From assembly GCA_958295835.1 (NCBI GenBank), contig OY282378.1, forward strand, positions 2,691,694-2,755,693: a stretch of 64,000 nt of DNA. Direction: 5' to 3'. Source of the DNA: an uncultured Gammaproteobacteria bacterium (GTDB taxonomy: Bacteria > Pseudomonadota > Gammaproteobacteria > HK1). The notes under the pieces were generated by a model that worked only from the letters and a program-made list of their open reading frames with translations, did not search any database and had not been told where the DNA came from. The position numbers and the translations under genes are program-made. Positions 22,254 to 61,488 of this stretch are shown here, piece by piece (position 1 is the stretch's first letter; the number at the start of each line of letters is the position of its first letter).

Positions 22254-23231
22254 TCAGAAGCTGCCCAGGGCATTGAGGGCCGACAGGAAGGCCGGGCCCG
22301 CGACCAGCAGCATGGTGCCCGGCACCACGAACAGAAGCATGGGCAAGGTCATCAGCACGGGCAGTCGCTCGGCCTGCTCGGTGATCCGCGCGGCCCGTTG
22401 CGCACGCTCGTTGCCCGCGATGTTCGTCAGCGATTCGGTCAGGGGGGTACCGTAGCGGTCGCTCTGCATCAGGACGAAGGCCAGCGACTTGATCCCCTCG
22501 ATAGGGGTGCGCTCGGCGAAGGCGGTGATCGTGTGGCGTCTCGCGCCGCCTACTTGCAGCTCCTTCTCGAACAGGACGAACTCCCGGGCCAGATGAGGCT
22601 CCACGCTCTCGAATTCGTTGGCGACGGTCTCCAGCGCGCGTTCGAACGTGAGCCCTGCCTCCCGGCACATGACGATGAGATCGAGCGCGTCCGGGAGTGC
22701 GCTGCTCATGCGCACCGTGCGCCGGTCGGCGAGCCACTTCACGCCCCGCTCGCTCACGATTCCTCCGACGACGAACGCTCCGAACGCGCCCATGATCGGA
22801 ATGAGCAGCCCTCCTGCCAATTGCTCCACCCCCCGTATTCCCATCCACGCAGCAGCCGCCGCACCGAGTCCCAGGGTCGACTTCACCGCCAGGTACCGGG
22901 GCAGTGCATCCGGGTGTCCGAACCCGGCGTCACGGAGCAGACGGCTGAGCTTCTCCCGCTCCCCGGCTCCGATCGGCGCGATCACCGACACCACCGCCAC
23001 GAAGGCGCTGCCCACGTTCTGCAGCAGGCTTCGCGCGTCCTCCCGGCCGCGCCCCCCCTGGTGGTGGCGCTGCGTGGCAACCAGCACCGCCCGCGGCACG
23101 TCCAGGCGCCGGTCGAACTCCACCGCCCTGCGCAGGTTCCGGTTCGCCAGCCAGACGAGCAGCACGAGCAGGACCAGGCCCGTGACGAGCGCCGGCAGCA
23201 GCCAGAGCGCCGTGTCCTGCCCGGCGATCAT
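22254..23231 (-). CDS. tadC: Tad pilus inner-membrane platform protein TadC
   Basis: A 325-residue T2SSF-domain membrane protein. Hydrophobic segments lie near the N-terminus, around residues 120-160 and at the C-terminus. The cytoplasmic T2SF helix bundle includes [19 protein letters not shown] and [17 protein letters not shown], which are the family hallmarks. With TadB it forms the platform that TadA drives to extrude Flp pilin. Its ATG overlaps the tadB stop by four bases (ATGA), so it is coupled to tadB; it is the last gene of this transcript. Confidence 0.93.
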
Positions 23232-24187
23232 CGTGTTCCCCGGGCGATCAGGAGGTAGGCGACCCCCACCCCCAGGGCGATGAGTCCAATTCCGACCCGC
23301 AGCACGAACAGTCCGTTCGGGGTGTTGAACAGGATGTCGACGGTCTCGGGTGCGGTGAACTTCTGCATGGCGAGCACCACGATGGGCAGCAGGATCAGCA
23401 CAATCAGGGTCAGCCGGGTCTGGGCGGTGGAGCTATGCGCCTTCAATGCAATCTTCCTGCGCTCCCTCAGGGTTCCGGTCAGGTTTCCCAGCGCCTCCGA
23501 GACCCCGCCTCCGGCCTTGCGCTGAAGCTTCAGCACCGCGCAGAACAGGGTGAATTCGGGGATCCGCACCCGCGCCGCCACGGTCTTCATCGTACGGTCC
23601 GCGTCAAGTCCTGCCCCGAGTCCGTTGCACACCGCCTCCAGCACCCCCTGGACGGGCGGCGGGACGTCCTGCACCACGTTGGACAGCGCCTCGAGGGGCG
23701 GGATGCCGGTGCGCGAAAGCTGGGCGATCTGATCCACCACGTCCGGGAATTGCTGGGTGAACTTCTTCGCCTCCCGGGCCTGGAGCCAGACCAGGGTGCC
23801 GTATACGCTCGCGGCCATCCCTCCCAGGATGCCCAGGGTCAACCACGGCCCGCCGGGGACCTGGAGGATGAGCCGCATTACGGCCCACAACCCCGCACCC
23901 ACCCCGGCGGCCACGCCTCCCGTGATCCCGACGGCGCGCGGACCCTGGAGCAAGGGATACCAGGCCTCGATCCGATCCCAGAGCCAGGCCCGCTTGCGTT
24001 CCGTCCGGAAGACGCTCTGGGCGATCTCTAGCCCCGGCGCATCGCCGTCGTCGGCCATCGGCGCCGCGACCCGCTGGATCCGGGGCTTCAACGCGCTCGC
24101 CCGGACGTAGGCCAGCGCCCACGCGCTCCCGGCCAGGAGACATGCGGCCAGGAATCCCGCGATCACTACCGTTACACCGCCGGTCAT
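23228..24187 (-). CDS. tadB: Tad pilus inner-membrane platform protein TadB
   Basis: A 319-residue T2SSF-domain protein. Transmembrane segments lie at about 5-27, 90-145 and 260-315. The family core QFPDVVDQIAQLSRTGIPPLEAL and the following AVLKLQRKAGGGVSEALGNL are clear. It begins with ATGA overlap on the stop of the two-TM sensor-like protein upstream and ends with ATGA overlap on tadC, so translation is coupled on both sides. This ties the sensor module physically to the pilus platform. A longer in-frame opening upstream reads the previous gene out of frame and is rejected. Confidence 0.93.
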   Translation of the reverse strand: MTGGVTVVIAGFLAACLLAGSAWALAYVRASALKPRIQRVAAPMADDGDAPGLEIAQSVFRTERKRAWLWDRIEAWYPLLQGPRAVGITGGVAAGVGAGLWAVMRLILQVPGGPWLTLGILGGMAASVYGTLVWLQAREAKKFTQQFPDVVDQIAQLSRTGIPPLEALSNVVQDVPPPVQGVLEAVCNGLGAGLDADRTMKTVAARVRIPEFTLFCAVLKLQRKAGGGVSEALGNLTGTLRERRKIALKAHSSTAQTRLTLIVLILLPIVVLAMQKFTAPETVDILFNTPNGLFVLRVGIGLIALGVGVAYLLIARGTR

Positions 24188-25263
24188 GGGGATTCGGGAC
24201 TCCCTCCCGGCGCCTTCCGCGTAATGCGCGCCAGGATGAGGCTGACCACCGCGACTCCCGCCAGGCCGCCGTAGAGCAGTCGCCGCCAGTCTTCGAGGCT
24301 GTCCCGGATGGCCCTCAAGCTGGAGACGGTGAGCACGATCTCTTCGGCGTCCCGATAGAGCAGCACGATCCACGGCGGCCCCCCCGGCTCTTCGTCCAGC
24401 CGGGCCCAGGCCAGCACGTGCTCCCTGCTGAGCATGATCCCTTCGGACCGCTCCGTCTCGTCCTCCAGCTTCCGTATGTCGTTGGAGATCCGGAACGCCC
24501 TCTCCGCCCGCCCGGGGTTGCCGTCCGCCACCACCGGCGCCGATGCGATTGCACGCCGCGCCTCCGGCACCCACAGGTGGGCGTGCCCCTTGTCCCCCAG
24601 GCCGCCGGCCGCCAGCCGGATGGGCCGGTGCACGGCGCTGGGCCCGCACCGGACCTCGATCCACCCGAACCGCCTGCCGGTCTGCATCTCCTCGATCGGG
24701 CTGCGCGTCGTGATCGTTCCGTCCGGGTGCACCTCGACGACGGGATCGTCCCGTCCATCGCTCCCGGGAGCTTGCCTGTCATCGAGGTCCGGGTGTGTCT
24801 CCTCCGTCCTTGTCCCGGAAGACGCCAGGACAGCGTCCCATTCCGGGCTCCTGGCCAGGATGTCCCCGGACAGGTCGTACACCGTCAGGCTGATGACGTC
24901 CCCGCCTTCGTCCACTTCTTTCCTCAGCCGTTCCACGGTGTCCCGGAGAGGGGGGACCGGGGGCGGCTTCCCGCCATCCTCCGCGACGCGATCCGATGCG
25001 TTCCCCCGGAGCTGCCGGATCAGATCCGCATCCCGCGCGACCCGTCTCGCCCTCCACTCCCAGTTGTCGCGGTGGTGCTGCACGGTACCGGCGACACTGC
25101 GGGCCTGGGCCCTCAGCGCTGCCCCGGCGACGTCCGTGACGATTTGCGCCCGGGCACGGTGAAGGTGGTCTTCAATGGTGTCGAGGCGGTATCCCAGCAC
25201 GCCATGCGCGACGAGGCCGGTCAGGACCAGCGGGAATACGATGCTCCATAGCGCCTGGCGCAT
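24184..25263 (-). CDS. Two-TM periplasmic sensor-like protein (module copy 1)
   Basis: A 359-residue protein with one N-terminal membrane segment (about 5-24), a large extracytoplasmic domain, a C-terminal membrane segment (about 331-348) and a short basic tail. The layout equals that of the clearer dCache protein at 29340-30485, and both hold the same place in the duplicated module, but dCache sequence signatures are weak here. It has no kinase, GGDEF or HAMP output domain, so any signal must pass to another protein, perhaps the adjacent DAHL protein. The stop overlaps the tadB start (ATGA). I do not recognise a named family with confidence. Confidence 0.75.
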   Translation of the reverse strand: MRQALWSIVFPLVLTGLVAHGVLGYRLDTIEDHLHRARAQIVTDVAGAALRAQARSVAGTVQHHRDNWEWRARRVARDADLIRQLRGNASDRVAEDGGKPPPVPPLRDTVERLRKEVDEGGDVISLTVYDLSGDILARSPEWDAVLASSGTRTEETHPDLDDRQAPGSDGRDDPVVEVHPDGTITTRSPIEEMQTGRRFGWIEVRCGPSAVHRPIRLAAGGLGDKGHAHLWVPEARRAIASAPVVADGNPGRAERAFRISNDIRKLEDETERSEGIMLSREHVLAWARLDEEPGGPPWIVLLYRDAEEIVLTVSSLRAIRDSLEDWRRLLYGGLAGVAVVSLILARITRKAPGGSPESP

Positions 25264-25284
25264 CGGTGCATCGCGTGCCCGGCG

Positions 25285-28038
25285 TCACTGCGCGGGCGGG
25301 CGCGATCGGGCCGGGGGCAGCCGGAGCCGGACCATGGTGCCGTGGCGGGGGTACGGGGTGATCTCCATCCCTCCCCCCTGTCCTTCGATCAGGCCACGGG
25401 CGACGGCCAGGGCCAGACTGCGGCGTTCGCCCGATCCCTCGCCCTCGGGTCCGTGATCCAGGCAGGTCAGGTGGACACCGTCGTCCTCCTGCACCAGGGT
25501 CAACGTCACGTACCCTTCCCCGCCGGGGTGGAGGCGCGCGCCCTCCAGGGCGTGCTTCACGATCAGGTCTGCCGCGGCCTCCAGCGCCTGCAGGTTGCCC
25601 CGGGTAACGGCTCCCGGGACCAGCGTCGCGTCGATCCGTCTCCGATCCTCTCCGGCCAGTGCGCCCAATTGCCTGTCGAGCAGCGCCCTCATGTCGATCC
25701 GACCCATGGACCCGCGCGGCGCCGGCGCAGCCGGGAGCCGGTCCACTTCCCGCAGCAGCGTGTGCACCGCCCAGCGCGCGCCGGCCATCCGGCCGGCGGC
25801 GGCGGCCCAGGCAGTACCCTGGTGCCCTTCGCCGTCCGCGTTTCTCCGGACGTGCTCCGCCTGCTCCGCGGCGGCGGTGGCGGCGCGGATCTCCTGCTCG
25901 ACTTCCCGCAGCCGATCGAGCATCGCTTCCCGGGTTGCCCGGTGGACGAACTCCGATCCGTCCGGTTGCGACGGCGGCGACGCTTCTTCGGCCTCCCGGT
26001 CCCGGAGACGAAGCTCTTCGCCGCCGCTTCGCACCGGCACTCCGTCCTCGGGTGCTCCGGTCCGAGCCCGGACGGCCGCCGCGGTCTTCGCTTCGGACTC
26101 TGCCGCCCGCGCCTGCGCTTGCGGGCTCTTCCCATCGGCCCGGATCAGCCTCGCGGCCCGATCGTCTTCTTTCCCCATGACCGGAAGCCGGCCGGTATCG
26201 TCGTCCGTATGCGCCTGTACTCCCCCACCCTCCGTGACCCCGACTCCCTGCTCCGGAGGAGCGTCTTCGGGTCCGGAAGAGGGCGGTAGCGGTTCCGGCG
26301 CCCGTTGTGCCCCGGCCTCCTCCGCCCTCAGCGCCTTCAGGCGGCTCTCCAGGAGCGGGCTCGTGCGGATCTCCTGGAAAGTGTCCGACGGTGGGTCCTG
26401 GCCCTCCGCGACGAAGGCGTCCGGCTCCCCGGCGTCTTCAGCGTCCCCGGGCACGGACCCTTCATGCGGTGCCCGCCGGTCGTCGGGTTTCGCCTTCAGC
26501 GTCGCCGGTCGCCCTTCCGGGGCAAGGTCCGCGCGTTCGGCCGCGGCGGTGTCTTCCTCCCCGCCCGCCGGGACGGTTCGGCTTGCCGTTACGCTCTCCG
26601 GGACGGCGGATCCCTGCTCCTCCCCGGCGTCTCCGGGCGGGAACCCTTCATGCTGCGCCCGCCGGGCCGCTTCCTGCGCCCGCGCCCGCCTCTGGGCCTC
26701 GAGCTCCGCCTTCAGGGCCTTCAGCCGCTCCTTCAGGGAAGGCTCCTCGGGTCCGCTCCCGGGTGCGTCTTCCTTCCCGCGGACCGGCGCCTCTCCTCCG
26801 GCCCCCTGCTCCCGGACGTCTTCACGTCCGGCTTCTTCGCGCTGCGTCCGGCGGGCCTTTCCGTCCCGCGCCTTCAGGCGTTCCTCCAGGGACGGAGACG
26901 CCCCCTCCCGGAACGCGGGGCCCGCCTCCGTCCGGCGTCCCGGGTGCTGAGCCGGCCGGGATTGCACCGAGCGCTCCCTCGCGCCGGTGCGCGCCGGTCC
27001 CTGGACGTCTTCCAGCGGAAATCCGGGACCACCCGCGGTGGCCAGCGCCACGTCCATGCCCCAGGGTGACGGAGACCCGCCCGCCGGGGCCGCTTCAGGC
27101 GCCTGGGACGCGGCCTTTCCTTTCCTGCGCCTGCCCCACCACCGGACGATCAGGGCGGCCCAGTAGAACGCGGCGAGCGCCAGCGACACCCAGAACCCAT
27201 AGTCGAAGTAGCGCCGCTTCGTCCGGCTCTGCTGGTGGTCCGCATCCAGCAGGCCGATGACCCGCTCGGCCCGGTCTTCCAGATCCGTACGCATGACATC
27301 TTCGAAGCGCTGCTCCGTCAGCCCGTGGTGCTGCAGCAGCGCGCTCACGTGCTTGTTCAACGTCTCGGCCTGAGTGCGCAAGGGGGTGTCGGCGGCGCTC
27401 TCGGTCAGCGTGCTTGCGGCCTGCGCCAACCGCTGGTGCTGGATCTCGGTGGGTTGCCTCAGGAAGCTCGGCATCCACTCGAGGATCTGCCGTGTCGCGG
27501 CTTCGACCCTCCTGTGCCCCCCGTCCCGTGCGGCCTCGGCGAGCAATGCACCCTCTCTCGGGATGATGCGGCGCGAATTCCGCACGATGGCGAAGCCGGA
27601 CTTGAAGCGCTCGATGCGCTCCTCTCGCGCCTTCAGGCGCTGCACGTAGCCGTTCAGGGCCCACTTGATGTCGGACGGCAGGTTGGGCATCGCGCTCTGG
27701 CTGTCGTGGATTACCCGGATGTGGGGGGACATCCGGTCGACGAAATTGGCGAGCACGTCGAAGTTGCTGTTGACCTCGTTCTTGACCTTTCCTACCTCGA
27801 TGCTCCACTGCGCAGCCAGCATCTGCGTCGAGCGGATGGAGTTCACTGCACTCATGCACTGCGCCGTCACCATCTCATCGCGCTGGATCGCGACATAGAA
27901 GAACCCTGCGGAGGCCAGCAGGGCAAGGCTCACCAGAACGCCCAGTGCTGCCCCCAACAGACTCTTCACGGACATCCGCCCATCGTCGTCCGGGTGTTCC
28001 CGGATCGGGCCGTTCCAGTGCTCCGCGGCTGCGTTCAT
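25285..28038 (-). CDS. DAHL-domain membrane protein with degenerate histidine-kinase-like ATPase domain (module copy 1)
   Basis: A 917-residue protein. TM1 is about 25-47 and TM2 about 282-304; the helical periplasmic domain between them contains ERIERFKSGFAIVRNSRRIIP, the pattern of the DAHL sensor domain. Residues about 310-720 are charged low-complexity sequence with repeated RLKAL-type heptads and EGFPPGDA-like units. The last 150 residues resemble a histidine-kinase ATPase: DHGP (G1-like) and SLALAVARGLIEGQGGGMEI (G2-like). The N-box lacks the usual Asn series, and I find no phosphoacceptor H-box, so kinase activity is doubtful. It is 21 bp from both module neighbours. Confidence 0.75.
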   Translation of the reverse strand: MNAAAEHWNGPIREHPDDDGRMSVKSLLGAALGVLVSLALLASAGFFYVAIQRDEMVTAQCMSAVNSIRSTQMLAAQWSIEVGKVKNEVNSNFDVLANFVDRMSPHIRVIHDSQSAMPNLPSDIKWALNGYVQRLKAREERIERFKSGFAIVRNSRRIIPREGALLAEAARDGGHRRVEAATRQILEWMPSFLRQPTEIQHQRLAQAASTLTESAADTPLRTQAETLNKHVSALLQHHGLTEQRFEDVMRTDLEDRAERVIGLLDADHQQSRTKRRYFDYGFWVSLALAAFYWAALIVRWWGRRRKGKAASQAPEAAPAGGSPSPWGMDVALATAGGPGFPLEDVQGPARTGARERSVQSRPAQHPGRRTEAGPAFREGASPSLEERLKARDGKARRTQREEAGREDVREQGAGGEAPVRGKEDAPGSGPEEPSLKERLKALKAELEAQRRARAQEAARRAQHEGFPPGDAGEEQGSAVPESVTASRTVPAGGEEDTAAAERADLAPEGRPATLKAKPDDRRAPHEGSVPGDAEDAGEPDAFVAEGQDPPSDTFQEIRTSPLLESRLKALRAEEAGAQRAPEPLPPSSGPEDAPPEQGVGVTEGGGVQAHTDDDTGRLPVMGKEDDRAARLIRADGKSPQAQARAAESEAKTAAAVRARTGAPEDGVPVRSGGEELRLRDREAEEASPPSQPDGSEFVHRATREAMLDRLREVEQEIRAATAAAEQAEHVRRNADGEGHQGTAWAAAAGRMAGARWAVHTLLREVDRLPAAPAPRGSMGRIDMRALLDRQLGALAGEDRRRIDATLVPGAVTRGNLQALEAAADLIVKHALEGARLHPGGEGYVTLTLVQEDDGVHLTCLDHGPEGEGSGERRSLALAVARGLIEGQGGGMEITPYPRHGTMVRLRLPPARSRPPAQ

Positions 28039-28059
28039 GGTGGTCTCTCCCGGGTCGTC

Positions 28060-29079
28060 TCAGTTCGCCCCGGTCTCCGGACTGACCTCAAGCTCGGGGT
28101 GCTCGCCCGGCAGGGTGCGCAGGAACGCCACGATGGCGTCCTTGTGGTCGTCGGGGGCCTCGAGCCCCAACTGGAAGGTGAACATGGCGTCCACGGCGTC
28201 GCGCAGGGTCTTTGCCGTGCCGTCGTGCAGGTAGGGAGGGGTCAGCGCGACCATCCGCAGGCTCGGGACCTTGAAGGAATGCATGTCCTCGATGTTCCCG
28301 GTGAGCATGAACCGTCCCCTGTCGGCGTCGGTGATGTTACCGCGACGGATGAAGTAGTTGTTGATCACCCCGAAGACCTGGAACATGTTGCCGCCCACCG
28401 CCGCGCCCTGGTGGCAGCTCGAGCAGCCGTAGTGCTTGAACAGGCGGTAGCCTTCGAGCTCTCGCTCGGTCAGCTTCGTGTCCGGGTCCTCCTCGCCCTT
28501 CAGCCATCGGTCGAAGCGTCCGTTGGTCGTGTTCAGGCTCCGGACGAAGGCCGCGATCGCCCGCTTGACGGTATTCCGGCTGATGGGCTCGTCGCTATCC
28601 GGCTCCAGGGCCTGGAACTGCTTCGTGTACTCGGGGTTGTCGTACAGCCGGATCAGCACCTCTCCCCATTCGTTGCCCATCTCCGCCGGGTTCTGGATGG
28701 GACCGTCTATCTGCTCTTCCAGCGTTTTCTTGCGCCCGTTCCAGAACTGGCTGTTCAGGAGACCCGCGTTGTACACGGTGGGAGAGTTGATGTCCCCCTT
28801 CTTCCCCTCGATTCCAATCGAGACCTGCCGGCCGTCGGCTCCCCCCTCGGCCAGCAGGTGGCAGCTCGCGCAGGCAATGGTGCCGTCCCGGGAGAGGTTC
28901 GGGTCCGTGAACAACGCCCGGCCGAGCGCGATACGCGCCGGATCCTCGGGCGGCGAAGGCGGCACCGGATTAATGGGCTCCGCCCTTGCCGCGGCATGGC
29001 TTCCCAACAACCCTGCACCCATTGCGCTCAAGAGCATCACCGTGCGGATCGCTTTCGTGCCTGTTCCTCCTGTTCGCAC
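28060..29079 (-). CDS. Periplasmic di-heme cytochrome c peroxidase / MauG-family protein (module copy 1)
   Basis: A 339-residue exported protein. A signal peptide (about 1-33, ending AARA-EP) is followed by two heme c sites, CASCH at 70-74 and CSSCH at 218-222, spaced as in bacterial cytochrome c peroxidases and MauG. INSPTVYNAGL and FKVPSLRMVALTPPYLHDG are the other family landmarks. Members reduce hydrogen peroxide or carry out protein oxidation in the periplasm. It heads the copy-1 module, followed by the DAHL protein and the two-TM protein, in a Tad pilus operon where such an enzyme is unexpected. A 260-bp gap upstream may hold its promoter. Confidence 0.92.
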   Translation of the reverse strand: MRTGGTGTKAIRTVMLLSAMGAGLLGSHAAARAEPINPVPPSPPEDPARIALGRALFTDPNLSRDGTIACASCHLLAEGGADGRQVSIGIEGKKGDINSPTVYNAGLLNSQFWNGRKKTLEEQIDGPIQNPAEMGNEWGEVLIRLYDNPEYTKQFQALEPDSDEPISRNTVKRAIAAFVRSLNTTNGRFDRWLKGEEDPDTKLTERELEGYRLFKHYGCSSCHQGAAVGGNMFQVFGVINNYFIRRGNITDADRGRFMLTGNIEDMHSFKVPSLRMVALTPPYLHDGTAKTLRDAVDAMFTFQLGLEAPDDHKDAIVAFLRTLPGEHPELEVSPETGAN

Positions 29080-29339
29080 CAGCCCCCCGATGCCGTGCGG
29101 GTTCCGTGCCGTTCGCCTTGTCCGGTCTCGCGTCCTCCGGAACCTCGACGGTTTGCCGTCCTGGCGTCGCGCTCTTGCGCGAGTCTACCACACGTCCCGG
29201 GCCTCCTCCGCTTCGAACGCGATCCCGCTGCACGGAGGCACGGGCGGCGGCCGCGCTTCCGGCCGGCTATCGGCGGGGGTCAGCCGAACGTTCGCCGGTG
29301 AGCCGGCGAAGACGAGACGCCGTCCGGCTCCTCCGCGCG

Positions 29340-30485
29340 TCAAGCGCCACCCTTGCCGCTCCGTTCCCCGACCGCGAGGAGGGCGGCCATCAGGATGCTG
29401 ACCCCGGCGATGCCCGCGAGGACGGCGGCCAGGAGAAGCCGCCATTCTTGCAGGGCGCCCTCGATCTGGACGAGCGTCGCGACCTCGCCTTCCATCCAGT
29501 TCGTCGCCTCTCGGACCACGACGATCCAGCCGAGCCCCGCGAAGTCCGGGGCGACCGCTTCGTACAGCGTGCCGCCGGGGGTCCGGGCGAACGCGGTGAG
29601 CATATGGTCGCCGGAGACGAGTCCTGCCGGTTCACCACCCTCGACCAGGGCGAGTATTTCGTCGGCGATGCCGACCTCCTCCTGCATCAGCCGTTCGGGC
29701 GCATGCCCGGACTTCGTGTCGGCGATGAGCCGGCCCTTCCTTTCGGCGACCTGCACGTTGCCGTCCTCCCTCAGGGTCGTTTCCGTACGGTCGGCGATAC
29801 CCTGGACGACATCGAGGGCCAGGACCGCCTTGAGCACACCCAGGGGAGCGCCGTCGTCCGGATCGTCGATGCGCAGGCTCAGCGCGACGGACCAGACCGC
29901 GGCCGAGGCGTCGTATTCGACTTCCCCGATGTGGAGGCCACGGTGCCACGCCTGCTGCCACCATCCTTCGTCGCTCTGGAGCATGTCGGACGTCGGGTTC
30001 GTGGTGGCGATGTTGAGACCGTGGACGTCGGTGAAGAACGTCTCGGCAAAATCCGGGGAGGCGAGGATGAAGGCGTGGAGGCGCTGGTCGGTCTCGGGGA
30101 ATGCGCGGAGGCTCTTCTCCGGCGGCGCCCGGGCTTCCAGTGCCTCGGGGTCGAGGCCCACGAGCCCTTCGGCTTCGTGGTGCTCCGCTCCCGCCCTGGC
30201 CGCGTTGACGACCAGCGGATCGCTGGCCCAGATCCGGAGGCTGGCGATCCGCTCGACGACGTAGCGGTCGATGGTGTCGGCGATGCGCTGGGCCTGCCCG
30301 ATGAGGTGGCGGCCTTCGACGCCCTCGACGAGAGCGGTCCGTGTCGCCCCGATCTGCTGGGCGATGACGTCCAGGCGGTAGCTCATGAAGAACCAGGCGG
30401 AGAGACCGATGATGACCACGGGGACCCCGACGCTCGTGAGGGTCAGCCTGACGAGGGCGCCGCGGCGGGGCGATGTGGTGGTCAT
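29340..30485 (-). CDS. dCache-type two-TM sensor protein (module copy 2)
   Basis: A 381-residue protein with TM1 about 12-34, a periplasmic double-Cache-like domain and TM2 about 348-370. The Cache signature is clear: FFTDVHGLNIATTNPTSD followed by DEGWWQQAWHRG (about 153-185), a ligand-pocket pattern seen in chemoreceptors and sensor kinases. There is no HAMP, kinase or cyclase output; the tail after TM2 is about ten residues. It occupies the same module slot as the protein at 24184-25263. Cache domains bind small molecules such as amino acids or carboxylates; the ligand here is unknown. Confidence 0.83.
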   Translation of the reverse strand: MTTTSPRRGALVRLTLTSVGVPVVIIGLSAWFFMSYRLDVIAQQIGATRTALVEGVEGRHLIGQAQRIADTIDRYVVERIASLRIWASDPLVVNAARAGAEHHEAEGLVGLDPEALEARAPPEKSLRAFPETDQRLHAFILASPDFAETFFTDVHGLNIATTNPTSDMLQSDEGWWQQAWHRGLHIGEVEYDASAAVWSVALSLRIDDPDDGAPLGVLKAVLALDVVQGIADRTETTLREDGNVQVAERKGRLIADTKSGHAPERLMQEEVGIADEILALVEGGEPAGLVSGDHMLTAFARTPGGTLYEAVAPDFAGLGWIVVVREATNWMEGEVATLVQIEGALQEWRLLLAAVLAGIAGVSILMAALLAVGERSGKGGA

Positions 30486-30530
30486 GGCGCCGGCTCCTTG
30501 CGGCTCCGGTACGAAAGGGCTCCACCATGT

Positions 30531-32630
30531 CTATCGGGAGATCGTATAGCGGTCATGACGCTGGCTCCTTGGCTCGACATCCCTTCGGGTGGGGCTTCCG
30601 TTACAGGGGGGGATCCAGATTCGGATCCGGCTGCCGTAGGGGGGGTAGGTGGCGGCTTCGAACTCCCCGCCCTGCACGGTGACGAGGCGGCGGGCGACGT
30701 CCAGGTCCAGCGTATCGCGCCAGGCCGGTGCGCCGCCTGCCGCCGGCGTCGGCGGACCGGGTCCGTGGTCGATGCAACTGATGCAGTGCCGGCCTTCGCG
30801 GGTCGTGAGCGTGAGCTCGACGTGCCCGGCGCCCTCGGGGTGGCGGGCGGCGGCTTCCAGGGCATGGCCCAGTATCCGCTCCATGGCGGCCTCGAACGCC
30901 CGGAGGTCGACGTCGGCGACGGCGCCGGGGAGGAGGACCGCGGTGATCCGTCCGCGACGCGCCTCGTCGAGCGTATCGAGGAGCGACTTCAGGGCGTCGC
31001 GCAGGTCGATACGCTGCCGGTCGGGCTCGGCCTTCGTCCCTTCGAGCACGCCACGGGCCTGGGCGGCCAGGCGATACGCGCCCCACCGCGCCCCGGCCAG
31101 CCGGCCCAGAAGGGCGGCCAGTGCCTCCTCCGAGCGCTCCCCGGCCACGGGGCTCCTGAGCGCTTCGCCGGCTTCGGCCGCCCGGTCGAGCTCGTCGGCG
31201 ACCTCCGCGAGCTTCCCGAAGACGGCCTCGACCAGAGCATGCGTCGTGAGGCCGATGCCGCCTCCGCGGATCGGCGGCGCGTACGGCTCGGGCGCCGGCC
31301 CGGCGGGCGCTTCGGCCGCGACGCCGGTATCCACCGCCGGCGCCTCCGCCACCGGCTGCGGCGGTATCGCCTCCGTCACCGGCTGCGGCGGTATCGCCTC
31401 CGCCACCGGCCGCGGCGGTATCGCCTCCGCCACCGGCCGCGGCGGTATCGCCTCCGCCACCGGCCGCGGCGGTATCGCCTCCGCCACCGGCTGCGGCGGT
31501 ATCGCCTCCGCCACCGGCTGCGGCGGTATCGCCTCCGCCACCGGCCGCGGCGGTATCGCCTCCGCCACCGGCCGCGGCGGTATCGCCTCCGCCACCGGCC
31601 GCGGCGGTATCGCCTCCGCCCCGGCTCCCGTTGCCGCGGCCACGGAAGCCGGCGCCATGGGCGGGGCGCCGCGCAACATGCCGCTGTAAACGCGCCCGGC
31701 AACCGCTTCTTCCGCAGCCGGCGCCTCCGCCCCGGCAACGGGAGCCGGCGCCTCCTCCTCGCGGCGCCCGCGCCCGCGTCCGCGGAAGAAGCGCATGACG
31801 AGGGATGTCCAGTAGACGAATGCGAGCCCCGCTATCGCGTAAAGGGTATAGTTGAGGTAGTCGACGGAGATCCGGCGCGCTTGGTGGTGGGCGTCGATCC
31901 GGGCGCCGAGGACGGCGGCGGCGCTCCTGATGTCCCGGTTCGAAACCGCCTCCTCGAAGCGGTCCTCGGCGAGCTTGTAGCGATCGAGCAAAACGTCGAC
32001 GTGCGCGGCGATCTCCTCCACCTTCACCGCATCGGGCGTGCCGTCGCTCACTTCGAGGAGGGCATCGAGGGTCTGGCCGGTGCGCTGTCGCCAGGCGCGG
32101 GTGGGGGTCCTGATGAACTGCTCCAGCTCTTCGAGCATGAGCCCCGCGGCGTCCACGGCCATGGTCCGGCCGCCTCCGCGGGCGTTCCGGAGCAGCGCCT
32201 TGCTACCTTCCGGATCGTTCAGGAGGAAGTCCTGGCTGTTGCGGATCACGGCGTGATCGGTCTTGAAGCGCTCGATCAGCTCCTGCTTCGCCCGAAGGCG
32301 GTTCAAGTAGCCCCGTATCCCGTTCCGGATCTCGTTCGGCAGCTCTCCCATCCGCCCGCGGGCGGTGACGATGGCCTCGCGCTGGGCGGCGAGCCTCGGG
32401 ATGTAGACCTTGAGGGAGTCGAAGTCCGCGTCGGGCTGGTTCTTCACGCGTCCGACCTCGGCCCCCCATTCCGCGGCGATCCGCTCGCTCGCGCGGATGG
32501 CGTCGAGTGCCTGCATGCCGGCGGTGGCGCCAGCCTGATTCCTGAGGAGCTGGCGGTAGACGAGCCCGGCCCCGGCAACGAGGCAGGCGCTGATCACCAG
32601 TGCGATGACGAGGTTGGCGAGGCGATTCAT
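30531..32630 (-). CDS. DAHL-domain membrane protein with repeat linker and degenerate ATPase domain (module copy 2)
   Basis: A 699-residue paralogue of the 917-residue protein. TM1 is about 7-28 and TM2 about 247-267. The helical periplasmic domain carries ELIERFKTDHAVIRNSQDFL, the DAHL pattern. The cytoplasmic linker contains ten exact or near-exact copies of AEAIPPRPV/AEAIPPQPV (about 338-427). The C-terminal domain is histidine-kinase-ATPase-like, with DHGPGP as a G1-like motif, but has no canonical N-box and no H-box. Its start overlaps the peroxidase stop by four bases (ATGA). Proline-rich spacers of this sort often act as stiff linkers or docking sites. Confidence 0.75.
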   Translation of the reverse strand: MNRLANLVIALVISACLVAGAGLVYRQLLRNQAGATAGMQALDAIRASERIAAEWGAEVGRVKNQPDADFDSLKVYIPRLAAQREAIVTARGRMGELPNEIRNGIRGYLNRLRAKQELIERFKTDHAVIRNSQDFLLNDPEGSKALLRNARGGGRTMAVDAAGLMLEELEQFIRTPTRAWRQRTGQTLDALLEVSDGTPDAVKVEEIAAHVDVLLDRYKLAEDRFEEAVSNRDIRSAAAVLGARIDAHHQARRISVDYLNYTLYAIAGLAFVYWTSLVMRFFRGRGRGRREEEAPAPVAGAEAPAAEEAVAGRVYSGMLRGAPPMAPASVAAATGAGAEAIPPRPVAEAIPPRPVAEAIPPRPVAEAIPPQPVAEAIPPQPVAEAIPPRPVAEAIPPRPVAEAIPPRPVAEAIPPQPVTEAIPPQPVAEAPAVDTGVAAEAPAGPAPEPYAPPIRGGGIGLTTHALVEAVFGKLAEVADELDRAAEAGEALRSPVAGERSEEALAALLGRLAGARWGAYRLAAQARGVLEGTKAEPDRQRIDLRDALKSLLDTLDEARRGRITAVLLPGAVADVDLRAFEAAMERILGHALEAAARHPEGAGHVELTLTTREGRHCISCIDHGPGPPTPAAGGAPAWRDTLDLDVARRLVTVQGGEFEAATYPPYGSRIRIWIPPCNGSPTRRDVEPRSQRHDRYTISR
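31350..31619. repeat. Ten tandem 27-bp coding repeats with a 135-bp super-repeat
   Basis: Ten head-to-tail 27-bp units encode the nonapeptide AEAIPPxPV within the copy-2 DAHL protein. Read in the gene's direction, the variable codon gives R,R,R,Q,Q,R,R,R,Q,Q, so five-unit blocks are themselves duplicated. The only other change is T for A at the start of the last unit. Units are nearly identical in DNA, indicating recent expansion by slippage or unequal crossing-over. Confidence 0.95.
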
Positions 32631-33727
32631 CTGGATGCCTCCTCCCGGGACGGGAGCGGCGGACCGAGGGGGTGGGTGCCGGCCAGGGTGTAGAGGAAGT
32701 CGATGATCGCTTCCTTGTGGTGGTCGGGGGCGGTGCGGCCGAGCTGGTGGGTGAACATCGCATCGACGGCGTCGCGCAGGGTCTTGGCGCTTCCGTCGTG
32801 GAGGTAAGGCGCGGTGTGGACGACCATGCGCAGACTGGGCACCTTGAACGCATGCATGTCGGCCCGGTTGCCGGTGATGTTGAAACGCCCGCGGTCGGCC
32901 TTGGTGATGTTGCCGCGCTCACGGAAGTACTGGCTGTCGTTGAGCACCCCGAACACCTGGAAGAAGTTTCCTCCGACGGCGGCCCCCTGGTGGCAGGAAT
33001 GGCAGCCGTAGTGCTTGAACCATCGGTAGCCCTCCAGCTCCCGGGCCGAGAGTGCGTTCTCGTCACCGGCGAGCCACCGGTCGAAACGGCTTCCGGTGGT
33101 GTGGAGGCTGCGGACGAAGGTGGCGATGGTCCGCTTGATGGTGTCGCGGGTGATCGTGTCGCCATCCCTGTCAGGGGGATAGAGGGCATCGAACTCCGCG
33201 GCGATCGCCGCGTCCCCGTACAGGCGATCGGTGACCTCGGGCCACATGCTGCCCATTTCTATCGGGTTCTGGACCGGCCCGTCGATCTGGTCGTCCAGCG
33301 TTTCCGCCCGGCCGTCCCAGAACTGGGCGACGTAGAGCCCGGCGTTGAAGACCGTGGGGGAATTGATCTCCCCTTTCTCACCGTCGATCCCGGTCGAGAT
33401 GACCTCGCCGTCGTCGCCGCCCTCGGCGAGCACGTGGCAGCTCGCACAGGAGATTTCCCCGGTCCTCGACAGGCGGGGGTCGTGGAAGAGCCGTTCGCCC
33501 AGGGCGACGATACGAGGGTCGGCGGCGGGCGGCGGGGGGACGGGATGGATCGGCTCGACGGCGCGGGCCTGATGGGCGACGAGGACGGCCGAGGCGACGA
33601 GGATCGCGGTCACCGGGCCGCGCCGCCCGGGCGCCCGCGAGGCGTCCCGCCGGAGGGATGGACGGGCGCCCGATTGGCCGGAGCCGGCGCGGATGCGCAG
33701 ACGCAGCAGCGGCCGATCAGGCTTCAT
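32627..33727 (-). CDS. Periplasmic di-heme cytochrome c peroxidase / MauG-family protein (module copy 2)
   Basis: A 366-residue paralogue of the peroxidase at 28060-29079. Heme c sites are CASCH at 94-98 and CHSCH at 242-246; INSPTVFNAGL, HQGAAVGGNFFQVFGV and KVPSLRMVVHTAPYLHDG are shared with copy 1. I chose the ATG at 33727, which gives a signal peptide with its hydrophobic core near residues 39-52 (TAILVASAVLVA) and cleavage near QARA-VE; the frame stays open to 33970 but the extra codons look non-coding. It is the first gene of the copy-2 module and overlaps the DAHL gene by ATGA. Confidence 0.9.
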   Translation of the reverse strand: MKPDRPLLRLRIRAGSGQSGARPSLRRDASRAPGRRGPVTAILVASAVLVAHQARAVEPIHPVPPPPAADPRIVALGERLFHDPRLSRTGEISCASCHVLAEGGDDGEVISTGIDGEKGEINSPTVFNAGLYVAQFWDGRAETLDDQIDGPVQNPIEMGSMWPEVTDRLYGDAAIAAEFDALYPPDRDGDTITRDTIKRTIATFVRSLHTTGSRFDRWLAGDENALSARELEGYRWFKHYGCHSCHQGAAVGGNFFQVFGVLNDSQYFRERGNITKADRGRFNITGNRADMHAFKVPSLRMVVHTAPYLHDGSAKTLRDAVDAMFTHQLGRTAPDHHKEAIIDFLYTLAGTHPLGPPLPSREEASR

Positions 33728-34129: not shown

Positions 34130-35581
34130 CTAATCCGCCGCCTCGTCCTTTCGGGGATCCATCCTGAACGCTTCCATCAGCTCGGCCTCCCTGCCGATCG
34201 CCTCCACCCGCGTCATCCACGGGGGCTGCCTCCCCGAGCATTCGAACACGTGCTCGGCGTCGAGCCCCGGCCGGCGGCGCCAGAGCTCCTCCGTGATGAC
34301 CACTTCTCCCTCCATCCCGACGATCGCGGTGGCGCTGGTGACGCATCGGTGGCCGCTGCGCAGCCGTTCCACCTGGATGACGAGATCCACGCTGCCGGCG
34401 ATCTGCCGGCGCAATGCCGGGAGCGGTATCTCCCCGGAGCCCATCATCAGCATGTTCTCCAGTCTGGTGAGGGCGTCCCTCGGATTGTTCGCGTGCAACG
34501 TCGACATCGACCCGGGATGCCCCGTGTTCATGGCGTTCAGCATCTCCTTGACCTCGGCGCCCCGGACCTCCCCCACGATGATCCGGTCCGGCCGCATCCG
34601 CAACGTGTTCACCAGAAGCGACTGCATGTCGACCTCTCCCGTTCCCTCGGCGCCGATCACGCGGGTCTCCAGCCGCACCACGTGGGACTGCTGGAGCTGG
34701 AGCTCGGCCGCGTCCTCGATCGTGATCAGCCGCTCCCCGTCGGGGATCTCCCTCGAGAGCGCGTTCATCATGGTGGTCTTGCCCGCGCCCGTGCCCCCGG
34801 ACACCAGGATGTTCAACCGGGCCTGCACCGCGATTTGCAGCATCAGCGCCATCGCGTACGAGAGCATCTGCTGCTCGGCCATCTGGACCAGACTGATCTC
34901 GCGCATCACGAAGCGCCGGATCGAGATCGCGGTGCCGTCGAGCGCGAGCGGCGGGATGACGATGTTCACCCGCGATCCGTCCGCCAGCCGGGCGTCCACC
35001 ATTGGACTGGCTTCGTCCACGCGCCGCCCGATGGAGCCCGCGATCCGCTGCGCGACCTGCAGGAGGTGGGCCTCGTCCCGGAAGTACAGATCGACGCGCT
35101 CCAGCCTCCCCCTGCGCTCGACGTAGGCGCTGTCCGGTCCGTTGATCAGGATGTCGGAGACGTCGGGGTCCTGGAGCACCGGCTCGAGCGGTCCGAGCCC
35201 CTTGATCTCGTCGACCAGCAGCTTGGCGACGCCCCTGCGGTCCAGGGCCGTCATGGTGGGGACTCCCGCGGCCCGTGCCGCGGGGGAGTCCAGCCACTCG
35301 TAGAGCTCCCGGTTCAGGGCCGGCCCTTCGATCTCCGCTACCCGCGTGGCGTCCAGATCCTTCACCAACAGCGGGTGGACCTCGGCGGTGAGCCGGGCCA
35401 GCTCGGCGTCCTGGGGGTCCGGGCGCCGCCTCGCGGGCGCCGCCTCGCGGGTTCCGGCCACCGCCGGCTCCGCGGCGGGCTCGGGCCTGCCTCCGGGGCG
35501 CGCGGGCGCGACCGGCCTGGAACCGACAGGTCCCGGCCGCCGCTCGGGGGTTCCTTTCTGCCCGAAGCGCCTGCGCAACAT
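34130..35581 (-). CDS. tadA: Tad/Flp pilus assembly ATPase TadA (CpaF)
   Basis: A 483-residue secretion ATPase of the VirB11/GspE superfamily. A Pro/Arg-rich N-terminus (about 1-55) precedes the N-domain. SDILINGPDSAYVERRG, the Walker A GGTGAGKT (262-269), the Asp box TIEDAAELQL, Walker B RIIVGEVRGAE and the His-box GSMSTLHANNP are all present, so it should be active. It powers polymerisation of Flp pilin through TadBC. It follows tadZ with a 168-bp gap; unusually, two peroxidase/sensor modules separate it from tadB. Confidence 0.95.
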   Translation of the reverse strand: MLRRRFGQKGTPERRPGPVGSRPVAPARPGGRPEPAAEPAVAGTREAAPARRRPDPQDAELARLTAEVHPLLVKDLDATRVAEIEGPALNRELYEWLDSPAARAAGVPTMTALDRRGVAKLLVDEIKGLGPLEPVLQDPDVSDILINGPDSAYVERRGRLERVDLYFRDEAHLLQVAQRIAGSIGRRVDEASPMVDARLADGSRVNIVIPPLALDGTAISIRRFVMREISLVQMAEQQMLSYAMALMLQIAVQARLNILVSGGTGAGKTTMMNALSREIPDGERLITIEDAAELQLQQSHVVRLETRVIGAEGTGEVDMQSLLVNTLRMRPDRIIVGEVRGAEVKEMLNAMNTGHPGSMSTLHANNPRDALTRLENMLMMGSGEIPLPALRRQIAGSVDLVIQVERLRSGHRCVTSATAIVGMEGEVVITEELWRRRPGLDAEHVFECSGRQPPWMTRVEAIGREAELMEAFRMDPRKDEAAD

Positions 35582-35749: not shown

Positions 35750-36805
35750 TCAGCCGCCCAGGAGGCGCCGGCTCAAGGTGGCGGCGGTGGCCTGGAGCGG
35801 CTTCGGCACGCCGCCTTGCGTGTCCCACCCCCGGTCGCTCCGGGCTCCGAGACGAGGATCGTAGGGCACGGTCAGGGCCTTCTCCAGCCTGACCCCCCGT
35901 GCCTCGAAGGCTTCCGCGGTCTTGCCTCCGCCATGCGGCCGGGTGTGGTTCATCACCGTCCAGGTGGGAATCTCCGGGCTCAGCAGCGAGATGCTCCGGC
36001 TCAGGATATCGGCCGTTTCCAGCGTCGGCTCGGCCACCAGCACGCGGGCGTCGACCAGATCCAGCAACTGGAAACGCAGGTGGGGGGCGCCCAGCCCGTC
36101 CACGATGATCAAGTGGGCGTCGCGAGCGAGGTGGTCCAGCAGCCATACGAGCCCCTGAAGTCCCGGGGGCGAGGGGAGCGTGCCCGTGAACCGGTAGCCC
36201 ACGACGTCCAGCCGTTCGCCGATGCGTCCGCTGAGCGCGGAGAGCGTCTCCGGATTGCCTTGCCCGCCCTCGGCCTGGGTCAGTACCTGCTCCAGGCCGG
36301 GCGGGACCTCGGTCTTCAACAGGAAGGCCAGGGCCGGGAACAGCCGGTTCAGATCCACGCAAACCACGTAGTGTCCGGCCTGGGCGGCGGTGAGGGCGAC
36401 GGCCCCTGCCAGCGTGGTCGCACCGGCCCCGGAGGCGCTTGCGAAGGCCGCCACCACTCCCCGGACCGGCGGCGCATCCGGCTCGGACCTGAGCCGTTCC
36501 AGGGTGGCTTCCAGAACGGCCGGATCGACCGGCTTCACCAGGTAGTCGCCGACGCCTGCCTGCATGACCTCCCGCGTACGCTCGGCGCTCGCGTCGCTCC
36601 CGACCGCGATGACCAGAGTGTCGGCGGTGCACCACTGGGCCAGCTCGTGCAGGCCACCCCCGGCGTAGTCGGTGCCGTCGAGGTCGACGATCAGGGTGCG
36701 GGCCGAGGTTCCGTCCTTGACCGCCCGCAGGACGGTGCGCAGGTCGCCGGACAGCCTCGTCCCGTCGGAGTCCGGATGCGCGATGGCGTCAAGCTCTCCG
36801 GTCAA
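35750..36805 (-). CDS. tadZ: TadZ/CpaE-like pilus localisation ATPase, copy 1
   Basis: A 351-residue protein with an atypical receiver-like N-terminal domain (VIAVGSD...GVGDYLVKPVDP, about 66-94) and a MinD/ParA-like C-terminal domain. The P-loop reads SASGAGATT (123-131): the conserved Lys of the deviant Walker A is missing, as in a number of TadZ proteins, so ATP hydrolysis may be weak or absent. CVDLNRLFPAL follows as strand 2. TadZ proteins mark the cell pole and recruit the Tad machine. A second, more divergent TadZ lies at 57226-58413. Confidence 0.85.
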   Translation of the reverse strand: MTGELDAIAHPDSDGTRLSGDLRTVLRAVKDGTSARTLIVDLDGTDYAGGGLHELAQWCTADTLVIAVGSDASAERTREVMQAGVGDYLVKPVDPAVLEATLERLRSEPDAPPVRGVVAAFASASGAGATTLAGAVALTAAQAGHYVVCVDLNRLFPALAFLLKTEVPPGLEQVLTQAEGGQGNPETLSALSGRIGERLDVVGYRFTGTLPSPPGLQGLVWLLDHLARDAHLIIVDGLGAPHLRFQLLDLVDARVLVAEPTLETADILSRSISLLSPEIPTWTVMNHTRPHGGGKTAEAFEARGVRLEKALTVPYDPRLGARSDRGWDTQGGVPKPLQATAATLSRRLLGG

Positions 36806-38287: not shown

Positions 38288-38355
38288 GCAGGCATTGTAG
38301 ACCGCCCCGGATTGCTCGGCGAACCCGGGGGCGTTACCGGAACGTGCACGGTCCG

Positions 38356-39459: not shown

Positions 39460-39603
39460 GGCGCCGTCCTGTGTCAGTGGAGGGCCAAGAGGATCGGGGT
39501 TTCGCGGCTTCCCGGTCAACTCCCTCGAATGCTCTCGACAGGGGCCGGTGCCGATGGTGACACCGGGAGCTCCAGGCGTTTCCACAACGATGTCAGGTCC
39601 TGG

Positions 39604-40197: not shown

Positions 40198-40327
40198 TTT
40201 TCGGCGCTGACCGGAATCGTGCGGTTCGTCCGGTGTGAAGGAGTCCACGACGCGGGATATCCCCTTGCGATGACATCCTCTGGCCTTTTCCAGCGAGGGG
40301 ACGTCAATGGCATTCAGGAGGTTATCC

Positions 40328-47503: not shown

Positions 47504-47770
47504 TCAGGTGCTTCCGACGTTGCCGACGGTGGTGGTCACTCTACCCGCAATGTCGTTGATCGCGGCCGAGATCTGAGTCCCGAACTGCCCGACGGCCAGC
47601 GTCACCGCGCCCACGATGACGCCGAGCAGGATCGCGTACTCGATGACCGAAACCGCCCGCTCGTCCTTCACCAGTCGCCGGACCGTCGTTCCGGTGCGCC
47701 CGGCGCCGGCCTTCAGGGATTCCACGGCGCTCATGCACTTCACCTGCATCTTCAGGAACATGGTGTTCAT
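47504..47770 (-). CDS. flp: Flp/Fap-type pilin, copy 2
   Basis: An 88-residue prepilin with an unusually long leader. The core ERAVSVIEYAILLGVIVGAVT is a clear Flp helix, but the residue at -1 of the expected cleavage is Ala (A39/V40), not Gly, with Glu at +5 and Tyr at +6. The mature part ends DIAGRVTTTVGNVGST. An ATG at 47734 would shorten the leader by 12 residues. It may be a minor or differently processed pilin. GAGGCAG precedes the ATG at 47770. Confidence 0.87.
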   Translation of the reverse strand: MNTMFLKMQVKCMSAVESLKAGAGRTGTTVRRLVKDERAVSVIEYAILLGVIVGAVTLAVGQFGTQISAAINDIAGRVTTTVGNVGST

Positions 47771-57225: not shown

Positions 57226-58413
57226 TCACCCCCTGCCCAGATGCTCCACCGGGGCGCCGATGGCGGTGGCGATCACCGTTTGCAGACCCCGGAGGTAGCG
57301 CTTGCCGGGGGGACGGGGCTTCTCGCGTCCGCCCGCCCGCGCCCACAGGGACGGCTCGTAGGGGATGACGACGTCCGGGCGGCGTCCCGCCAGAGCCTGC
57401 ATGATCTCCCTCGGGGTCAGGGACGTGCGGGGTCCGCGCGGATGGCATTCGATGAGGGTGGTGCTCTGCGGGTCCTCGAGCAGCGCGAGGAGGTGTGTCG
57501 CGTACCCGATGCTGGCCAGGGTCGGCTCGTAGGCGACGAGGCGGGCGTCGGCGGCCTCGAACGCCGCCATCTGCACGTCCGGCTCGGAGAGCCCGATGAC
57601 CAGCACCACCTGGGCCTGGTTCGCCAGCCCGTCCAGCAGGCGCTGGACGCTGCGCCCCGTCGGGGGCTCCTCGGGAGGACTCTCCGGGGCCGGAAACGCC
57701 ACCAGCCCCAACCCGGGCTGCACCGGCACGGCCAGGCGCACGTCGATCTCCGTGCGCGTCAGCGCCGGATCCGCGTTCCCCTTCCCTTCCTCTTCCTCGG
57801 CCTCGTCCTGCGCCTGGAGCTCCACTTCGAGCCGGAACAGGGTCGCGTCCAGGGCCAGGTTGGGCCGGGTCCCGGTCAGGTTCCGCGCGCGTCCGGCGAC
57901 CGGGTCGAGGTCCACGCAGAGCACCGTCCGCCCGGCATGAGCGATCCCCCGGGCGATGATCAGGGCGAGCGAGGAGAGCCCCAGCCCCGCGGTTCCGCCG
58001 CACGCCACCACCCTGCCCGCGTGCTGGCGGGCGGGAGCGTCCGGATCCGACAGCGCCATGGTGACCGCCTCCCGGGCGGACGCCGCGCTCAGGGGCTTGA
58101 CCAGGTAGTCCGTGGCGCCGGCCCGGTAGCAGACGCGCACGCTCTGGGCGCTGTCGTCGGTGGCGATGACGATGAGGAGGGTGTCGGGGTGGATGATCCC
58201 CCGCAGCGCGCGCGTGGCCTCGGGGGCCGACATTTCCGCGCCCTCCAGATCCGCCAGGAGGACCTTCGGGCCGGGTTCCCGGGCCACCGTCTCGAGCATC
58301 GCCCGGAACGGCGCCCGGTCCACGCGGGCATTCAGGCCGGACAGCCCCGTGCGCAGTGCGAGGCAGGTCGCCGCGTCCCTCCCGAAGCCCCGGACCTCCG
58401 GATTCTCAGCCAT
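57226..58413 (-). CDS. tadZ: TadZ/CpaE-like pilus localisation ATPase, copy 2
   Basis: A 395-residue protein with a receiver-like N-domain (IVIATDD...GATDYLVKPLS, about 81-109) and a MinD/ParA-like domain. The P-loop is GGTAGLGLSS (139-148): the usual Lys-Thr/Ser pair is degraded, more so than in copy 1. CVDLDPVAGRARNLTG then YEPTLASIGYATHLL follow the family order. It is last of the secretin, lipoprotein, tadZ run. Two different TadZ-like proteins in one Tad locus could mark two sites or form a heterodimer. Confidence 0.83.
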   Translation of the reverse strand: MAENPEVRGFGRDAATCLALRTGLSGLNARVDRAPFRAMLETVAREPGPKVLLADLEGAEMSAPEATRALRGIIHPDTLLIVIATDDSAQSVRVCYRAGATDYLVKPLSAASAREAVTMALSDPDAPARQHAGRVVACGGTAGLGLSSLALIIARGIAHAGRTVLCVDLDPVAGRARNLTGTRPNLALDATLFRLEVELQAQDEAEEEEGKGNADPALTRTEIDVRLAVPVQPGLGLVAFPAPESPPEEPPTGRSVQRLLDGLANQAQVVLVIGLSEPDVQMAAFEAADARLVAYEPTLASIGYATHLLALLEDPQSTTLIECHPRGPRTSLTPREIMQALAGRRPDVVIPYEPSLWARAGGREKPRPPGKRYLRGLQTVIATAIGAPVEHLGRG

Positions 58414-61109: not shown

Positions 61110-61488
61110 GCGCCCGGCCTTCCAGTCCGTCCGGCAGTTTCCGCTAACCCGCGGATCCGTCTCGCTCCGCCGCCCGGACCGTTGGAAGGTCCGGGCACGG
61201 GAGCGGTATGGCCCTGCCCCGGGGAATGAGCGGGAATTCCTGCATTTCGTCGTTCCCGTTGCCGAAACCGAGCGGCTCTGCGAGCATCCGTCCCGAAGCG
61301 GACGATCCGGCCGCCGCAGCGCCCACCGGGTCCGCCTGCCGTCGGCGGAGGCGTGGCACGCAGCTCGCCTCTCGGTCTTTTCGATGCCGGAGTATGCCAT
61401 ACTTCAATATGTTGCACGCTGCTTTGGAAGAAGTATCTCACCTTACGTCATGGGCAATGAGCCCGCGATCCCGGCAAGGAGGTTCTTC
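61110..61488. other. Divergent promoter region between secretin and prepilin peptidase genes
   Basis: The 379-bp spacer should carry both promoters. AT-rich stretches occur near 61385-61440 around the dyad at 61391-61403, on an otherwise GC-rich background. No gene-like frame. Confidence 0.5.
61391..61403. promoter_or_regulatory. Candidate operator dyad
   Basis: AGTATG and CATACT flank a single central C, a perfect 13-bp dyad set in the AT-rich part of the divergent spacer. It lies about 280 bp upstream of the secretin start and 85 bp upstream of tadV. The binding protein is unknown. Confidence 0.4.

Follow-up and report, generated by a model that had tools for sequence, protein, structure and literature searches.

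A duplicated peroxidase–DAHL pseudokinase–Cache array inside a Tad pilus locus, probably a Tad-specific branch of a widespread sensor cassette

Why should two copies of a di-haem cytochrome c peroxidase (CCP), a membrane receptor with a DAHL sensor domain and a Cache-like membrane protein lie inside the operon of a Tad pilus? The question is raised by a 64,000-nucleotide stretch of DNA from an uncultured Gammaproteobacteria bacterium (GCA_958295835.1, contig OY282378.1, positions 2,691,694 to 2,755,693), referred to here in its entirety as the window. On balance, and with some reserve, the six genes are best read as two paralogous modules that belong to a Tad-specific branch of a periplasmic sensor cassette of wide occurrence and act as a sensor for the Tad machinery.

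The arrangement itself is as the original prediction, made from the letters of the window alone, had described it: two copies of the order CCP, DAHL, Cache between tadA and tadB, with all six open reading frames (ORFs) present. The minus-strand order is tadZ/cpaE, tadA, CCP2, DAHL2, Cache2, CCP1, DAHL1, Cache1, tadB and tadC. Copy 2 consists of the secreted di-haem peroxidase CCP2 (32627..33727; PF03150 E=1.2e-51, two CxxCH motifs), whose start may be ATG 33727 or GTG 33613; the membrane receptor DAHL2 (30531..32630), a putative histidine-kinase-derived pseudokinase with a proline-rich linker; and Cache2 (29340..30485), a dCache protein with two transmembrane (TM) helices and no output domain. 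Copy 1 comprises the di-haem peroxidase CCP1 (28060..29079; PF03150 E=2.2e-54), the putative pseudokinase receptor DAHL1 (25285..28038) with its long charged linker, and the diverged two-TM Cache-like protein Cache1 (24184..25263), which is recognised by homology to Cache2 (E=5e-10, 24% identity). All six genes lie on the minus strand, as do the flanking genes for the motor ATPase TadA (34130..35581; T2SSE E=2e-60, TIGR03819 323 bits) and the platform proteins TadB (23228..24187; T2SSF E=5e-16) and TadC (22254..23231; T2SSF E=1e-14). The 4-bp ATGA overlaps between Cache1 and tadB (24187-24184) and between CCP2 and DAHL2 (32630-32627) are real. The further claim that the genes are translated with the pilus platform holds strictly for Cache1 and tadB, but not for the rest of the array: tadA and CCP2 are separated by about 400-520 bp, depending on the CCP2 start, and Cache2 and CCP1 by 260 bp, so that the array is coupled to tadB at its end only. 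A promoter and terminator scan returned one promoter-like and six terminator-like matches, both at chance level, which do not define the operon limits.

How far the parts belong together can be judged from other genomes, for which all counts of DAHL and CCP loci given here are samples and not a full census. DAHL is present in 45 of 274 genomes of the source organism's class, Gammaproteobacteria, and in the set collected through DAHL itself nearly every DAHL gene has a CCP gene directly upstream in the same direction. An alignment scan with CCP gave at least 80 loci, one genome per species; over all loci, found via DAHL or via CCP, 117 of 119 DAHL genes have such a partner, a set partly fetched through CCP, for which reason the DAHL-first set is the cleaner evidence for pairing. 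The pairing (loci L033-L152) seems to be a general rule for DAHL receptors that has gone undescribed, and since CCP–DAHL pairs occur across Pseudomonadota, the supposition that the trio is unique to the window has to be given up. The sensory nature ascribed to the parts is borne out, as the same cassette feeds GGDEF/EAL, histidine-kinase and PAS outputs outside the window's clade; among 62 DAHL proteins scanned there, Pfam matches comprise PAS (48), GGDEF (31), HATPase (28), EAL (25) and HisKA (25). Such variety of outputs marks CCP–DAHL as an exchangeable input cassette, for which a co-sensor role of the peroxidase is the simplest reading. Judged by its domain content, the pair is a widespread general sensory cassette with mostly cyclic di-GMP or kinase outputs.

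Within this diversity, linkage to Tad genes is confined to one clade of 41 rows on the CCP tree, window included (Shimodaira–Hasegawa-like approximate likelihood ratio test, SH-aLRT, 99). It is found in 20 of the 39 non-window loci inside this clade vs 0 of 76 outside, bearing in mind that clade rows are not phylogenetically independent and that the median flanks available are somewhat shorter outside (7.7 and 6.7 kb) than inside (10.9 and 8.1 kb). Locus gene content was taken from profile matches to six-frame ORFs. The Tad label changes three times on the CCP tree, vs a mean of 20 when labels are shuffled, and twice on the DAHL tree, vs a shuffled mean of 17. The proposed Tad link thus extends beyond the window, to CCP–DAHL pairs inside Tad loci at these 20 further loci and at L181, and the Tad-linked carriers are assigned to Alphaproteobacteria, Gammaproteobacteria and Binatia metagenome-assembled genomes (MAGs). 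Three positions are occupied. Defluviicoccus, other Alphaproteobacteria and MAGs of Gammaproteobacteria have the pair behind tadC; five loci of Binatia type have it immediately ahead of tadE/tadF/tadG/secretin; and the window has it twice, with tadA on one side and tadB on the other. The commonest order is tadZ-tadA-tadB-tadC-CCP-DAHL(-Cache) with 4-bp overlaps, and spacings in the tadC-linked loci are tight (tadC to CCP -8 to +1 bp, CCP to DAHL -4 or +2, DAHL to Cache often -4). A genome of the same family as the source (G284) carries the single-copy order tadZ-tadA-tadB-tadC-CCP-DAHL-Cache, which suggests that this order is ancestral. Repeated linkage in three arrangements rules out a chance insertion beside Tad, and on the comparison of gene neighbourhoods the Tad link is conserved and no chance neighbourhood. 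As separate observations, many carriers are metagenome bins, with names that, judged from titles, turn up repeatedly in work on sponges; L100 (JAJDTX010000178.1), labelled Bryobacterales, has a DAHL sensor identical to that of the alphaproteobacterial L091 and is probably a binning error; and the contig with the L089 Tad locus has, at L135:9695-10915, another CCP of the group, one that lacks a DAHL partner.

The third gene is less constant. A Cache protein is seen only in L076, L077, L083, L087, L090, L097, L099, L181 and the window, and the co-occurrence search suggested at the outset has accordingly a divided outcome: every complete CCP–DAHL–Cache trio found is Tad-linked, but the CCP–DAHL pair is common without Tad. 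Elsewhere Cache is replaced, by an Ig-like protein with prepilin peptidase and RcpC in L089 and L091, by an AAA ATPase and a globin in loci of the L079 type, and in a non-Tad branch of the clade (L078, L081, L073, L095, L103, L106) by a conserved 400-aa, single-TM, coiled-coil protein with the motif DLRKP, for which those scanned gave no Pfam match and next to which MalT-like LuxR regulators occur in L081 and L073. This patchiness and replacement identify CCP–DAHL as the core and Cache as accessory. In the window, Cache2 matches dCache_1 (PF02743) at 44.0 bits, just under the cut-off of 45, and its structural model places a dCache fold between the two TM helices, with matches to dCache structures (best E 5e-11). 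Cache1 has no Pfam match and lacks the conserved TNPTSD..QSDE..W core. Neither protein has an output domain, as both end directly after TM2; in relatives no more than a HAMP-like tail is kept, and both window proteins have lost it.

The receptors retain the architecture of histidine kinases and lack the residue on which phosphotransfer depends. The DAHL domain (PF19443) is matched at 71.4 bits in DAHL2 and 78.6 bits in DAHL1 vs a cut-off of 38, and HATPase_c at 30 bits in DAHL2, over its cut-off of 26.4, and at 17.7 bits in DAHL1, under it. Among full-length Tad-linked DAHL proteins, Pfam finds HATPase_c in 19/19 and HisKA in 0/19, and no H-box was found in any of the 22 Tad-linked DAHL proteins checked, three of them partial; outside the clade, where many outputs are GGDEF/EAL, the H-box regular expression is uninformative and the Pfam counts were used. 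The N, G1 and G2 boxes are retained in Tad-linked relatives, which may still bind ATP, whereas in both window DAHLs the N-box Asn is replaced by His and G2 is gone, leaving no histidine-kinase ATP site, so that the description 'decayed ATPase' was right for both. Shared by the two copies, these losses most simply predate the duplication. In the AlphaFold model of DAHL2 a confident sensor is followed by a disordered proline-rich linker (residues 292-459), a DHp-like hairpin and a CA-like domain with a predicted local distance difference test score of about 90 over much of its length; the DHp hairpin and HATPase fold are recovered by Foldseek matches to HK853 and to the pseudokinase DivL (4q20; best E 6.5e-9). 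Within the linker (window 31330-31620), about ten copies of AIPP[RQ]PVAE are encoded by an almost perfect DNA repeat that is likely variable in length.

Both peroxidases match PF03150 (CCP_MauG) and carry two CxxCH haem sites, motifs that are invariant in the CCP alignment and in 22/22 Tad-linked CCPs. In alignment to 1iqc, the axial Met of the high-potential haem is at its expected position in both window CCPs and in 22/22 Tad-linked CCPs, and CCP2 aligns with solved bacterial CCPs (bCCPs) with the catalytic Glu region kept; the roles of axial Met, loop His and catalytic Glu are taken to be those of the family. What is missing is the H71-type loop His, the segment reading STGIDGEKG and SIGIEGKKG vs SIGHKWQQG in 1iqc, as it is in nearly all DAHL-linked CCPs examined. 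In reductively activated bCCPs this residue blocks the peroxidatic haem until reduction, and its absence predicts a peroxidatic haem that is always open. Identity as a MauG-type enzyme was rejected, given scores of 155 and 173 bits vs 363 for TIGR04039 and 138 vs 444 for TIGR03791, and an axial Met instead of the MauG Tyr.

In both the CCP tree (SH-aLRT 99) and the DAHL tree (SH-aLRT 100) the two copies group as sisters, and in the latter each has a long branch. Identity between them is 66% for CCP, 33% for the DAHL sensor, 40% for DHp+CA and 29% for Cache; identities this low, with synonymous divergence (dS) near 1, rule out a recent tandem duplication, and by sequence divergence the duplication is old. 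The ratio of nonsynonymous to synonymous divergence (dN/dS) between copies is 0.26 for CCP, 0.62 for DHp+CA and about 0.9 for the DAHL sensor and Cache, values to be taken with caution, as dS is perhaps underestimated at 70% GC; on these values purifying selection is clear for the CCPs. Tandem duplication at this site, with tadA and tadB as neighbours, is seen only in the window's genome, which has no further DAHL genes. Four genomes of the same genus have no full-length DAHL-kinase, with the closest TadA in them at <=40% identity, and the genome G286 has tadA on contigs that end short of the stretch that could show an empty site.

Gene order, the CCP–DAHL pairing, conserved Tad linkage, loss of the phospho-His and fold class are established and form the ground of the reading. 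What we infer beyond them concerns complex formation, the nature of the signal, a redox change of the receptor and the pilus as output. The secreted peroxidase would be a co-sensor, reacting with peroxide or another oxidant or reading the redox state of periplasmic electron carriers, and would dock on the all-helical periplasmic DAHL domain of its near-obligate partner receptor, with the dCache protein, devoid of an output domain, as a helper subunit through which the same receptor senses ligands. The cytoplasmic half would be a histidine-kinase-derived pseudokinase incapable of His autophosphorylation and, in the window copies, probably of ATP binding, whose output would be a conformational protein contact with the Tad machine of the same operon, with no phosphotransfer. 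Redox conditions outside the cell probably steer the pilus through the module. The likeliest contact would be the receiver-like N-terminus of TadZ/CpaE (35750..36805, minus strand; PF00072 partial E=0.0013), in the manner of DivL and DivK, with TadA and TadB as alternatives; TadZ is preferred because it has this N-terminus, argued from the solved CpaE receiver-like domains 4myr and 4n0p, and because His-less kinase folds are known to bind receivers. TadZ as the contact is nevertheless a tentative choice, with the chances against it. The fully specified version, a dedicated Tad redox receptor in which the peroxidase serves a DAHL pseudokinase as co-receptor and the latter acts directly through the receiver-like domain of TadZ to gate or position the pilus machine, is likewise doubtful as it stands.

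Several points weigh against this sensory reading. CCP–DAHL binding and pseudokinase contact with any Tad protein are putative. CCP and DAHL distances are correlated (r=0.90), which counts in favour, but congruence of the two trees is expected anyway, as linked genes are co-inherited. Metagenome bins, some with doubtful taxonomy, are the source of most Tad-linked loci, many of which seem related by descent or transfer. The DAHL partners L085:10879-11835 and L092:3949-4836 have no cytoplasmic domain and end just past the second TM helix, an architecture that also agrees with a role of DAHL as membrane anchor of the peroxidase, and the fast divergence of DAHL and Cache could mean that one or both receptors are losing function. 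Taken to its end, this last point would make the window modules duplicates in decay, from a Tad-linked module that used to function, an improbable view, to which the loss in both DAHLs of ATP-site motifs kept by relatives, the long branches of both copies, the lost dCache core of Cache1, the lost HAMP-like tails and the dN/dS near 0.9 all lend something. However, six long open frames persist at 70% GC, haem and active-site motifs are kept in both CCPs under purifying selection, DHp+CA is conserved between copies no less well than the sensor (40% vs 33%), and the CA-like domain is modelled with high confidence. Even less probable is the proposal that these are ordinary genes for detoxifying peroxide in the periplasm, carried along in the Tad locus with no functional link: bCCPs in general are detoxifying enzymes and the CCP–DAHL pair is widespread without Tad, yet two phyla keep the linkage, in three gene arrangements, in the tadC-linked loci the peroxidase gene overlaps tadC and DAHL by a few bases, and the peroxidase has a near-obligate receptor partner.

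The tail-less partners also speak for the idea that the peroxidase is a pilus-pathway enzyme of the MauG/MbnH kind, oxidising residues of a partner (Tad pilin, DAHL or Cache), with DAHL only as its membrane anchor. Weak matches to MbnH and MauG models and the fact that CCP is under the strongest constraint of all module members (dN/dS 0.26) agree with it; the axial Met in place of the MauG Tyr in all 22 Tad-linked CCPs, NCBIfam scores far under the equivalog cut-offs (155-173 vs 363) and partnership with receptors of very different output, hence no single fixed substrate, make it rather unlikely. A somewhat better, though still doubtful, case can be made for a pseudokinase that tunes or heterodimerises with an ordinary histidine kinase encoded elsewhere, which in turn controls tad transcription. 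DivL with CckA and RetS with GacS are precedents for such kinase–kinase tuning, the kinase-derived DHp hairpin and CA fold are preserved, and MalT-like LuxR regulators adjoin some non-Tad members of the same clade. Moreover, PprAB in Pseudomonas aeruginosa is a known two-component pair encoded in, and controlling, the flp-tad-rcp locus (PMC3510237). On the other side, no linked regulator gene was seen at the Tad-associated modules examined, and the DHp helices have little sequence in common with active kinases. A sensory role at the Tad machinery stays the favoured interpretation of the six genes.

The window as a whole has tadA, tadB, tadC and tadZ along with secretin, rcpC and Flp pilin. Further upstream on the minus strand lie a Flp pilin gene (47504..47770; PF04964 E=1.7e-05, under the family cut-off), a second CpaE/TadZ-like protein (57226..58413; CpaE profile 310 bits, PF00072 partial E=1.1e-4) and the secretin RcpA/CpaC (58905..61400; PF00263 E=1.7e-35), and on the plus strand RcpC/CpaB (61967..62887; PF16976 E=4.7e-25), which makes this a single large Tad locus broken by insertions. 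Material inserted at 40307-41788, 42000-46000 and 51801-57127 includes what looks by eye like the remains of a transposase gene, AAA/DUF4143 genes and, in DNA of low GC content, a pentapeptide-repeat membrane protein and a NACHT-like gene. At 37082-39585, where one half of the locus gives way to the other, stand two tandem, very similar Uma2-like genes (weak Pfam match). The presence of two CpaE/TadZ paralogues (35750-36805 and 57226-58413) often recurs at module loci, e.g., L077, L083, L090 and L099.

The near-obligate pairing of haem peroxidase and DAHL offers a testable answer to what DAHL receptors sense, and the Tad-locked, phosphate-dead branch a testable route to the signals that control Tad pili post-translationally. 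If the fully specified version with TadZ is true, extracellular oxidants would exert post-translational, phosphate-free control over a type IVc pilus, and the peroxidase as co-receptor would be the normal working mode of DAHL receptors; for the carriers with names known from sponge studies, adhesion under host oxidants would be relevant. In the open-access literature, a scope that leaves out most subscription journals and so is not proof of novelty, we found no paper joining Tad pili with cytochrome c peroxidase, none joining DAHL with di-haem peroxidase in this sense, and no description of CCP–DAHL cassettes with GGDEF/EAL or histidine-kinase outputs or of the whole arrangement of peroxidase, DAHL pseudokinase and Cache in a Tad locus.

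Individually, the parts have familiar counterparts. The peroxidases share their fold family and two CxxCH sites with the Nitrosomonas europaea enzyme (1iqc) and with MauG/MbnH, and combine features of both groups: the axial Met of bCCPs, unlike MauG, and, like MauG, no loop His of the reductively activated bCCPs. We know of no partner receptor for 1iqc or for MauG/MbnH. DAHL is presented as a ligand-binding domain in the passages of PMC9796306 consulted, where the chemoreceptor Tlp10, which has the DAHL sensor domain in common with the window receptors, responds to small ligands and no peroxidase partner is mentioned. A repurposed kinase has its precedent in the Caulobacter pseudokinase DivL, which, according to PMC4211667, signals by receiver contact; like the window DAHLs, DivL (4q20) has a kinase fold without phospho-His, and receiver contact is the mode of signalling proposed here, but it is a cell-cycle protein with other sensor domains, and the TadZ contact in the window is a proposal only. 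PprA/PprB resembles the window in having a sensor kinase gene inside a Tad locus, whereas it is a working histidine kinase/response regulator pair that acts on transcription and has no CCP, DAHL or Cache module. The closest relatives are the CCP–DAHL cassettes of Pseudomonadota, which likewise place a di-haem CCP directly upstream of a DAHL receptor; their outputs are cyclases, phosphodiesterases or kinases with no Tad genes near, while the window has a His-less kinase remnant in a Tad operon. What seems new here is the arrangement of known sensor parts.

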